Source: Bacteroidota bacterium (lineage in GTDB: Bacteria; Bacteroidota; Bacteroidia; Flavobacteriales; Flavobacteriaceae). Taken from it: a DNA stretch of 64,000 nt. Numbering within the stretch: position 1 is the first letter of the stretch; each line of letters starts with the position of its first letter. The DNA lies in the NCBI GenBank assembly GCA_947447375.1, contig CANFJB010000002.1, forward strand, positions 186,001-250,000. Direction: 5' to 3'. The notes beneath the pieces were generated by a model that saw only the letters and a program-made list of their open reading frames with translations, made no database searches and was not told the DNA's origin. Below are positions 17,737-55,990 of this stretch, piece by piece. Both the position numbers and the translations under genes were made by a program.

Positions 17737-17810
17737 TATAAAAATTCTAAACCATTCAAAGTTCCATTTTTGGAATGATTATTCGAAATTACCAATGCAT
17801 CTGTAGCTTT

Positions 17811-17915
17811 TAGCCCAGATAGTAATGGAAATCCCACGGTTTTTAGCGTGGATTGCAATGGATAGCTGGATACGAGCGCAGCGAACTGACGAAGTAAATA
17901 GCTCCAAAAAATAAA
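17811..17915 (+). repeat. Dispersed palindromic repeat, family A copy 1
   Basis: Starts TAGCCCAGATAG and ends AATAGCTCC. The core is AAATCCCACG-GTTTTTAG-CGTGGATT, a hairpin-forming segment. It matches copies at 39540-39632 (minus) and 55848-55990. It occupies most of the nrdB-nrdA spacer. A short hairpin ACTGAA-AAAA-GTTCAGT follows near 17925. Confidence 0.7.
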
Positions 17916-52064: not shown

Positions 52065-52106
52065 CATCTATTCTTGACTAGTTTCAAGGATTTCAAAATT
52101 ACAAAT

Positions 52107-54206
52107 ATGATACAAAATCCTAAAAGATATACCATAACGGCTGCGTTGCCTTACACTAATGGACCAATTCATATTGGACATTTAGCGGGTGTTTACGTGC
52201 CTTCAGATATTTATTCCCGATATTTAAGATTACAAGGCAAAGACGTTTTGTTTGTTTGCGGAAGCGATGAACACGGCGTTGCCATTTCAATGAAAGCTAA
52301 AAAAGAAGGAGTTACGCCTCAGGAAATCATTGATAAATATGACGGAATAATTCGTCAATCGTTTATAGATTTTGGAATTTCTTTTGACAATTATTCTAGA
52401 ACTTCAGCAAAAATTCACCACGAAACTGCATCCGGATTTTTCAAAAAATTATATGACAATGGTGATTTTATCGAGCAAGTAACGGAACAATTATATGATG
52501 CTAAAGCAAATCAATTTTTAGCCGATCGATTTGTTACTGGAACTTGTCCTAAATGCGGTCATGAAGAAGCATATGGCGACCAATGTGAGAAATGCGGTTC
52601 TACATTAAACGCAACTGATTTAATTAATCCAAAATCAACCATTACAGGAGAAATCCCCGTTTTGAAATCGACAAAACATTGGTTTTTACCTTTGGATCGA
52701 TACGATGCTTTTTTAAGAGAATGGATTTTGGTTGGTCATAAAAACGACTGGAAGCCGAATGTTTACGGACAAGTAAAATCCTGGATTGATAGCGGTTTAG
52801 AGCCTCGAGCAGTTACTCGAGATTTAGATTGGGGAATTGACGTGCCTGTTGAAGGTGCCGAAGGGAAAAAATTATACGTGTGGTTTGACGCCCCAATTGG
52901 ATATATTTCTGCTTCCAAAGAATGGGCTGCGAGAGAAGGAAAAGACTGGGAACCGTATTGGAAAAATGAAGATACGAAACTGGTTCACTTTATTGGGAAA
53001 GACAATATTGTTTTTCACTGTATCATTTTCCCCGCGATGTTAAAAGCCGAAGGAAGTTATATTTTACCAGATAATGTTCCTGCAAATGAATTTTTGAATT
53101 TGGAAGGAGATAAATTATCGACATCAAAAAATTGGGCCGTTTGGTTGCACGAATATTTACTTGATTTTCCAAATCAGCAAGATGTATTAAGATATGCATT
53201 GACTTCAAATGCTCCAGAAACTAAGGATAACGATTTTACTTGGAAAGATTTTCAAGCGAGAAACAACAATGAATTGGTTGCGATTTTTGGAAATTTTATC
53301 AATCGGGTGGTGGTTTTAACCAATAAATTTTATAATGGAATTGTTCCAAATCCGATCCCCCTAGCCCCCGAAGGGGGAACTCCTAACTTCACGGATTATG
53401 ACAATGAAGTTTTAGTAGAGTTAAAAGCCTATCCAGCGGTAATTTCAAGTTCTGTGGAGCGCTACCGTTTTAGAGAGGCCTTGGGAGAATTGATGAATGT
53501 GGCCCGTTTGGGAAATAAATATTTAGCAGATGAAGAGCCTTGGAAAGTAATTAAAGACAATCCTGAGCGCGTGCAAACACAAATGTATGTTGCCTTGCAA
53601 ATTGCAGCTGCTTTGAGTTCACTTTGCGAACCCTTTTTACCTTTTACAGCAGTAAAACTTTCTAGAATTTTAAAAATAGAAACCAAAATAGATTGGAAAA
53701 CCGTTTCCGAAACGTCAGAATTAATTCCTTCAGGTCACCAAATTGGCGAAGCAGAATTGCTTTTTGCAAAAATTGAAGACGAAGAAATAAAAAAACAAAT
53801 GGACAAATTAGAAGCTACGAAAGTGGCAAATAAAGAAGAAATTGCTTCGTCTCTCGCAATGACAGAACCACAAAAAGAAACGATTCAATACGATGATTTT
53901 TCAAAAATAGATTTGCGTGTTGGAACTATTTTAGAAGCGGAAAAAATGCCTAAAGCAAATAAATTATTGATTCTAAAAATTGATACTGGAATTGATGTTC
54001 GCACCATTGTTTCGGGAATTGCAGAGAGTTTTTCTCCTGAAGAAATTATTGGGAAACGCGTTACGGTTTTAGTGAATTTAGCTCCTAGAAACCTTCGCGG
54101 AGTAGATAGTGAAGGAATGATTTTGATGGCTACCAATGCGGAAGGAAAATTGGTTTTTGTAAATCCTGATTCCGACGGAGTTGTCAATGGGGAAACCATA
54201 AATTAA
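52107..54206 (+). CDS. metG: Methionyl-tRNA synthetase with C-terminal tRNA-binding domain
   Basis: 699 residues from the ATG at 52107. Class I synthetase: HIGH motif in [10 protein letters not shown], zinc knuckle [18 protein letters not shown] (about 147-165), KMSKS variant KLSTSKN, anticodon-binding helical domain (about 400-560) and a C-terminal EMAP-II/Trbp111 OB domain (about 590-699, [18 protein letters not shown]). Two linker segments look like repeat-derived insertions: 53357-53383 ([11 protein letters not shown]) and 53840-53863 (EIASSLAMT). The last codons are tandemly duplicated downstream. Single gene with its own promoter. Confidence 0.97.
53357..53383 (+). repeat. C/G-rich palindromic repeat (family B) inside metG
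   Basis: CCCCCTAG-CCCCCGAAGGGGG-AACTCC, with stem CCCCC-GAA-GGGGG, in frame in metG. Very unlike the AT-rich surroundings. The reverse complement of an intergenic copy at 55251-55275 matches it (CCCCCTAACCCCCGAAGGGGG). Confidence 0.75.
53840..53863 (+). repeat. Tail element of repeat family A inside metG
   Basis: ATTGCTTCGTCTCTCGCAAT with ATTGC/GCAAT ends, followed by GAC, in frame. Matches ATTGCTTCGTTCCTCGCAAT-GAC at 55969-55990 and the tail at 39540-39562 (minus). It encodes EIASSLAMT in a linker. Confidence 0.7.
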
Positions 54207-54326
54207 AAAAACTAACCGCAAATTCGCAAATTTGAAATGAATCAAAAATGATAATTTGCCAATGGGGAAACCATAAATTAAAAAAACTAACCGCAAATTT
54301 AAAATGAAACAAAAATGATAATTTGC
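54185..54326 (+). repeat. Tandem duplication over the metG 3' end
   Basis: Unit 54185-54259 (75 bp, starting CAATGGGGAAACC) repeated at 54260-54326 with an 8-bp deletion. The first copy holds the metG stop. A 10-bp hairpin arm ACCGCAAATT (54290-54299) pairs with AATTTGCGGT (54328-54337) and could terminate metG. Confidence 0.85.
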
Positions 54327-54349
54327 TAATTTGCGGTAAAATAAATAAA

Positions 54350-55250: not shown

Positions 55251-55275
55251 ATTCCCCCTTCGGGGGTTAGGGGGC
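55251..55275 (-). repeat. C/G-rich palindromic repeat (family B), intergenic copy
   Basis: On the minus strand CCCCCTAACCCCCGAAGGGGG. Same as the metG segment. It abuts the SSB stop codon at 55277. Confidence 0.75.
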
Positions 55276-55276
55276 T

Positions 55277-55609
55277 TTATTTTCCTAACATCAATAATTC
55301 ATCAATTACGACTTCGGTGACATAGCGTTTTTCTCCGTTTTTGTCTTCGTAACTTCTGTGTGTTAGTTTACCCTCGATGGCAATTTCTTTACCTTTTACG
55401 ACATATTTCTCAATGATATCGGCAGTTTTTCCCCAAGCAATAAGACTGTGCCATTGGGTTTCTTCAACTTTTTCGCCTTTGTCGTTTTTATAACTTTCGT
55501 TGGTGGCAACGTTTAGTTTGGCTAATTTTTTTCCTCCATCGAATGTTTTGATTTCTGGATCATTACCAACGTGACCGATTAACTGTACTTTGTTTCTTAA
55601 TGTGCTCAT
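55277..55609 (-). CDS. SSB-like protein without acidic tail (second copy)
   Basis: 110-residue OB-fold SSB paralogue: MSTLRNKVQLIGHVGNDPEI, TQWHSLIAWGKTADIIEKYV, GKEIAIEGKLTHRSYED. It stops at LLMLGK with no linker or acidic DD.PF tip, unlike the SSB at 23932. It may bind ssDNA without recruiting partners, and could be a specialised SSB (for example natural transformation or an element). Downstream is the family B repeat. Function is inferred from fold only. Confidence 0.9.
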   Translation of the reverse strand: MSTLRNKVQLIGHVGNDPEIKTFDGGKKLAKLNVATNESYKNDKGEKVEETQWHSLIAWGKTADIIEKYVVKGKEIAIEGKLTHRSYEDKNGEKRYVTEVVIDELLMLGK

Positions 55610-55847
55610 GGCGTTTAATATTTAAAAGGTTTGATCTGAACTCGTTTCAGATTCTTTGTTTTGCCGATACTTATTTGATTTCGACATTGCAAAGATGTGG
55701 CGACTTCCAAAATTTATTCGGTTGTTAACTGCTTACTTTCGGTTGTAGTTGTTTGTAAGCGTTTGTAATTGGAAAATTATAAGTATATTTGATTGATTGT
55801 AAAAGTTTTAAGGCCAAAAATTAAAAACACAAAAGACAATATACTTT
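55610..55847. other. Intergenic region upstream of SSB, no gene seen
   Basis: AT-rich. Holds a weak minus-strand CATCTTTG (near TAnnTTTG) at about 55690. Nothing else supported. Confidence 0.4.
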
Positions 55848-55990
55848 TAGCCCCGATGGCAGTGAAAATCCCATGTTTTTACATGGATTGAAACGAACAG
55901 CGGGAATAGGATTGGTAAAATTAGACTGGCTTTTCGCTTCAAAAAGAAATTAATAATAAGGGGAAAGATTGCTTCGTTCCTCGCAATGAC
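55848..55990 (+). repeat. Dispersed palindromic repeat, family A copy 3
   Basis: Starts TAGCCCCGATGGCAG, core AAATCCCATGTTTTTACATGGATTG (CCATG/CATGG hairpin), then AGCGGGAATAGG, and the tail ATTGCTTCGTTCCTCGCAATGAC. It runs up to 7 bp before the start of the 55997 gene. Confidence 0.75.

Follow-up and report, generated by a model that had tools for sequence, protein, structure and literature searches.

The window, a stretch of 64,000 nucleotides, carries metG, the gene for methionyl-tRNA synthetase (MetRS), on the forward strand at 52104..54206, as identified by its reading frame and by alignment of MetRS. Within metG lies a 21-mer repeat, CCCCCTAGCCCCCGAAGGGGG (53357..53377, forward strand, by motif match and shuffles), in the orientation denoted F and in the frame that reads PLAPEGG. 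Alignment to MetRS lacking the segment gives a net insertion of 27 nt, or nine amino acids, at 53357..53383 (+), with exact ends that are ambiguous by a few bases. Next to it, at 53385..53414 (+), is a 30-nt 3′ flank (10 residues) that is common to other insertion-bearing metG alleles and unlike the nearest empty relatives. A second copy of the 21-mer, CCCCCTAACCCCCGAAGGGGG, is found on the reverse strand at 55254..55274, two bases past the stop codon of a neighboring gene (55277..55609, reverse strand). The copy abuts the 3′ end of this gene, whose product we take, by recognition alone, to be a single-strand DNA-binding protein. The initial annotation had equated the metG segment with the minus strand of the second copy bar one base, and the match holds, with one mismatch between the two and no match to the 21-mer in 100 shuffles.

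The codons of the metG segment (ATC CCC CTA GCC CCC GAA GGG GGA ACT) are in frame and encode IPLAPEGGT. In an AlphaFold2 model of MetRS (46 sequences, mean pLDDT of 79.2), the insertion is predicted to have no regular structure except for a one-residue strand and to lie between the helices formed by residues 380-410 and 431-452, with a pLDDT of 64 for residues 421-430. The model is consistent with the linker placement originally proposed. As a single strand, the repeat folds no better than shuffles (z of −1.05, −0.46, and −1.07); GAA and UUCG loops are known to be extra-stable. Separately, the end of metG, AATGGGGAAACCATAAATTAAAAAAACTAACCGCAAATT, recurs ~75 bases downstream (window about 54186-54330).

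Most relatives of the enzyme lack the segment. Eighty MetRS loci were fetched and 79 were aligned, L066 being left out as it is cut by a contig end and has no frame. The segment is absent from 77 of the 79, and orthologues without the repeat lack these residues. In the remaining two, L038 has the segment intact at the same site and in the same frame, and L042 has a diverged 12-aa form. The full segment also has no counterpart in the alignments to P. abyssi-type (1rqg) and human (5gl7) MetRS, the first two among the solved MetRS listed. The empty relatives and the preserved frame support the initial annotation in its claims that a repeat has been inserted in frame into metG and that repeat DNA has been captured there as coding sequence in a linker.

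A genus-wide peptide search matched MetRS in 383 of 398 genomes. Among the matches listed, the linker span exceeds 201 nt in at least seven genomes, that of the window included, measuring 228 nt in four, 237 in two, and 249 in one; the excess is divisible by three in every case. The long-span metG alleles form a series from intact to rebuilt palindromes, accompanied by codon changes. Because the alleles differ, no claim of DNA-level conservation of the repeat within metG is made. The metG linkers of L153, L151, and L154 hold other or nested palindromes (TTCCGATAAATCGGAA; CCCCCAAAGGGGG), resembling a repeated landing place.

The distribution of the insertion does not follow the descent of the host protein. 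A MetRS tree of 57 rows was calculated with the linker left out, after dropping L148, which represents the window, and L042, whose stretch as read is the same as that of L151 and which was treated as a duplicate. The eight insertion rows are scattered on this tree (7 changes, compared with a shuffled mean of 7.7), a single clade of insertion alleles is rejected (p-AU 0.003), and the three rows closest to the window (L160, L156, and L155) all lack the insertion. A single inherited metG insertion was dropped as an explanation on account of this scatter.

The 3′ flank has a history of its own. Seven of the eight insertion alleles have the common 30-nt flank or a close form of it, while L038 has the repeat without that flank. 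Compared with L156, the nearest empty row, the window is 93% and 89% identical in 60-codon segments on either side and 57% identical in the 30-nt flank; compared with the insertion-bearing L149, it is 97% identical in the flank and 86% identical on both sides. The other six flank-sharing alleles are 43–60% identical to their nearest empty row in the flank and 82–97% outside it (the downstream segment of L153 was left out of this comparison), and 80–97% identical to their best partner in the flank. The mosaic has a permutation p of 0.0018, uncorrected for kinship. On the evidence of these alignments, the scatter on the MetRS tree and the flank common to seven of the eight alleles show that the allele plus its flank has evidently moved between lineages at one site.

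Homing is the likely but unproven means by which the metG insertion spread. Homing with one-sided co-conversion would leave a shared 3′ flank, and the pattern that same-site spread with co-conversion would produce is present in metG. The same mosaic would result if the repeat allele had spread between species by ordinary short-tract homologous recombination, with no nuclease necessary, and the genome of the window has no copy of the nuclease domain DUF559 with ends that match the metG repeat. However, the tract is one-sided and at the same site in all seven flank-sharing alleles, and undriven transfer would need no such repeated targeting, which leaves ordinary recombination a possible but rather unlikely account.

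The repeat is widespread beyond metG. In the genome of the window (2.39 Mb, 25 contigs) there are four exact copies of the 20-mer and seven with up to three mismatches, against none of a reversed control. Exact copies are present in 53 of 199 Flavobacterium genomes (227 copies, up to 22 in one genome; reversed control 0 in the rows shown), and the motif is therefore not confined to metG. In a sample of the order, the 20-mer occurs in 8 of 296 genomes, two further genera of the family among them. A longer version of the repeat, with CCTATTAGGGGTCAATAGG or something close to it coming next, is seen in L009, L017, L018, L021, L024, L033, and L036, often just ahead of a start codon.

A codon model was used to class 180 distinct exact copies, read from loci that had been sampled for the repeat. 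With the spans that define the end classes fixed beforehand and the class counts standing without a null, 72 copies are at the 3′ end of a gene, all in F orientation; 28 precede an ATG by no more than 30 bases, 25 of these in R orientation; 31 are inside a coding frame; 22 are in frame at the N-terminus, where some cases may be misjudged starts; 8 are in frame at the C-terminus; and 19 are elsewhere. Among the 3′-end copies, a stop codon precedes the 20-mer in 62, most commonly ending two bases before it (33 of these), and in 10 of the 72 the TAR of the repeat is itself the stop codon. Internal copies are read in frame F0 (PL[TA]PEGG) 15 times and in frame R0 (PPSG[VA]RG) 16 times, and never in the two other open frames; for the N- and C-terminal copies the counts are 8 for F0, 21 for R0, and one for another frame. 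The in-frame copies are not independent, since several represent the same site across genomes (leuS, metG, metH, ileS-type, and purL-type). Repeat pairs within 700 bases are arranged inward, F..R, in 14 cases and in the opposite order in one; 13 are 50–98 bases apart and one 422. By Pfam, the hosts of the repeat include class I and class II tRNA synthetases, DNA polymerase I, RNase HII, and a PurL-type enzyme, along with uroporphyrinogen decarboxylase, porphobilinogen deaminase, urocanase, FixH, an Eco57I methylase, and a pyruvate dehydrogenase E1-type protein.

The repeat has the character of a REP, being short, palindromic, present in many copies, and mostly between genes (of 180 copies, 100 lie at the ends or starts of genes, 61 in coding frames, and 19 in other places). 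Neither the GTAG nor the CGTC tag is found in full, and TAA or TAG stands beside the hairpin instead. REPs elsewhere are tied to RAYTs (REP-associated tyrosine transposases), according to the portion of PMC3733652 available, and RAYT matches (E ≤ 0.001) are present in 152 of the 199 genomes, that of the window included. An ordinary REP mobilized by a RAYT, with DUF559 as a passenger, is nonetheless improbable. The C4..G4 hairpin repeat was found in the flank read of none of 50 RAYT loci, RAYTs are not associated with the repeat (44 of 53 repeat-bearing versus 108 of 146 repeat-free genomes, p 0.26), and some genomes have repeats but no RAYT match, such as G004, G030, G055, G064, and G037. An IS200-type/Y1 transposase was also rejected as the mover, with the repeat at 0 of 30 Y1 transposase loci. 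The hairpins seen near Y1 transposases are CCCCCAAAGGGGG in L118 and CCCCTAACGGGG in L133.

In a fuller form of the element, two inverted repeats enclose a DUF559 (Vsr-like) nuclease domain, which housekeeping enzymes carry as an in-frame insertion. In the leucyl-tRNA synthetase (LeuRS) of L026, DUF559 (E 4.5e-35) is directly upstream of the repeat-coded PPSGARG, and Pfam places the domain in MetH at two sites. DUF559 is matched in 105 of the 199 Flavobacterium genomes, with many strong matches within large frames. The best 30 DUF559 loci were fetched, of which 27 belong to host genes and 3 are free-standing; 20 further stretches gave 13 readings, with 7 unread under the motif filter. Five host sites are known from these loci, namely LeuRS, MetH A, MetH B, RecG, and a UvrD-type helicase, with the domain assigned by Pfam, and the DUF559 insert has no equivalent in the solved LeuRS and RecG. 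The copy in the genome of the window (G000:C3:41699-42013) is in a UvrD-type helicase on contig C3 (L388 1018-4689, reverse strand). There the inserted domain is flanked by inverted stretches of about 50 nt, and its ends belong to another repeat subfamily than the metG 21-mer.

Among 40 in-gene DUF559 copies, 27 have a hairpin stronger than in the rest of the gene (p < 0.05) at the left end, 36 have one at the right end, and 24 have both. In a set that draws on other families of the phylum as well, 36 of 50 in-gene copies and 6 of 12 stand-alone ones have one flank matching the other in inverted orientation (p < 0.05); in a few (L405 and L386), something other than the hairpin gives the best match. 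In L363, L366, L373, and L378, the LeuRS insert has at its right end exactly the 21-mer of metG. The intergenic layout of the repeat, with F at stops, mostly R before starts, and some inward F..R pairs, is the layout of the ends of the nuclease form. Two further arrangements were observed, a LeuRS of 1386 aa with two DUF559 stretches (L393 697-4854, reverse strand) and a DUF559 gene standing alone between the two arms of a 37-nt inverted repeat with zero mismatches (L436 1444-1827, forward strand).

The inserts appear to be retained in the host protein. The frame is open right through them, all 40 in-gene domains examined for the DUF559 core motifs have retained them, and a scan of 15 proteins found host domains and DUF559 only, with no splicing (intein) family at E ≤ 0.001. 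No group I/II intron family was matched at the 6 loci scanned, where the sole matches were two of the Flavo-1 RNA. Flavo-1 was rejected as the identity of the repeat pairs, its matches having no overlap with the repeats. The window holds two Flavo-1 (RF01705) matches, at 55845-55911 (+, 60.5 bits) and 17808-17876 (+, 55.1 bits). In a phylum sample, DUF559 occurs in 170 of 296 genomes, partly in large frames. Of 30 phylum loci, 19 are readable and 10 are in host genes, including LeuRS, MetH, and HsdR-like proteins named by motif; these host copies mostly have strong end hairpins, counted without a null, with none on the left in L413.

It could be argued that the hosts benefit from DUF559 as an accessory domain and that the repeats are mere linkers. 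RecG, the UvrD-type helicase, and, elsewhere in the phylum, the HsdR-like proteins (by motif) act on DNA, and the DUF559 motifs are intact. However, LeuRS and MetH do not act on DNA, the insertion is patchy (any DUF559 match in 105 of the 199 genomes), and the repeats also occur without DUF559, in unrelated genes and between genes. An accessory role therefore has little probability.

The repeat and the nuclease tend to occur in the same genomes. Strong DUF559 matches (E < 1e-20) are found in 39 of 53 repeat-bearing and 39 of 146 repeat-free genomes (odds ratio 7.6, p 3e-9, uncorrected for kinship, in a genome set that includes some incomplete genomes). Against the nuclease as mover, the DUF559 core is within about 480 nt of only 7 of the 180 exact copies, and 14 of the 53 repeat-bearing genomes have no strong match (one of them with 12 copies); any part it takes in the proposed homing-like move would be in trans, now or formerly. 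Moves of DUF559 between host sites are rare, as the DUF559 tree has five label changes for six groups, the fewest possible. MetH site B is placed next to two of the site-A copies (88/77). Frequent movement between host sites was rejected, one clade not being rejected by the AU test for MetH site A (p 0.10) and LeuRS (p 0.36).

These findings suggest a mobile element that resides within proteins and does not splice itself from them. Since the right end of some LeuRS inserts matches the metG 21-mer exactly and the repeats bound DUF559, a solo end is the best reading of the metG segment. We put at roughly 0.55 the probability that it is the 27-nt solo end of a family of small mobile palindromic elements with a nuclease-bearing fuller form and homing-like spread. 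A break at the empty metG site would be followed by repair from an insertion-bearing copy, and the insertion would be tolerated because its 27 nt leave the reading frame intact and code for a linker rich in Pro and Gly. We infer that the DUF559 nuclease drives the spread of the insertions. A wider generalization is more tentative, with the balance somewhat against it: that DUF559 between inverted hairpin repeats forms non-splicing, in-frame homing elements, retained as tolerated domains and homing with co-conversion, whose solo ends, that in metG included, are scattered within and between genes across Bacteroidota. The mover of palindromic elements into proteins is, to our knowledge, an open question, and repeats that are the two ends of an in-frame nuclease domain offer a concrete candidate. 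They also offer a testable route from selfish DNA to protein sequence without splicing, and linker or domain insertions in essential enzymes of Bacteroidota may be remains of elements, not adaptations.

Several known systems bear comparison. Di Nocera et al. 2013 (PMC3733652), in the part available, describe intragenic REPs, which are short palindromes in coding frames, including those of tRNA synthetases and repair genes, and report that REPs adjoining 3′ ends can supply a TAG stop, that inverted dimers occur, and that in one case two Xanthomonas recB genes share a REP site. The Flavobacterium repeat resembles these in its positions within frames, at 3′ ends, and as inverted pairs, whereas that part of the paper covers other sequence families, does not include Flavobacterium, and describes no nuclease domain between repeats. 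The initial annotation's analogy with Rickettsia palindromic elements is supported, in that the metG segment would work as they do, with repeat DNA in frame within a protein gene and serving as coding sequence; these elements belong to another lineage, some (RPE-1) are longer, and the likeness drawn here is one of the mode of insertion (PMC3733652, same part). RepRanger predicts 2,411 and 4,118 REPs in two Flavobacterium genomes (Table 3) and notes many E. coli REPs 1–20 nt from a stop codon, and the accessible text describes neither in-frame insertion nor a nuclease link for the Flavobacterium REPs (PMC12306157). VsrA of Caulobacter, a DUF559 Vsr-like protein held responsible for DNA damage, is of the same domain family as the inserts but is a separate gene with a predicted mismatch repair role, as far as the accessible text of PMC12907096 goes.

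Already known, then, are REPs in genes and near stops, REP predictions for Flavobacterium, and DUF559 as a Vsr-like endonuclease. The nuclease-bearing combination was not found in print, and no description of repeat-bounded in-frame DUF559 insertions was found in the literature as judged by titles and the starts of abstracts, with few subscription papers covered. Inteins and homing endonucleases are nuclease domains in frame in housekeeping enzymes, at recurrent sites and with co-conversion of flanks. The DUF559 element is unlike inteins in having hairpin repeats at its ends and no intein family in the 15 proteins, but it resembles inteins and homing endonucleases in bringing an in-frame nuclease into housekeeping enzymes at recurrent sites.
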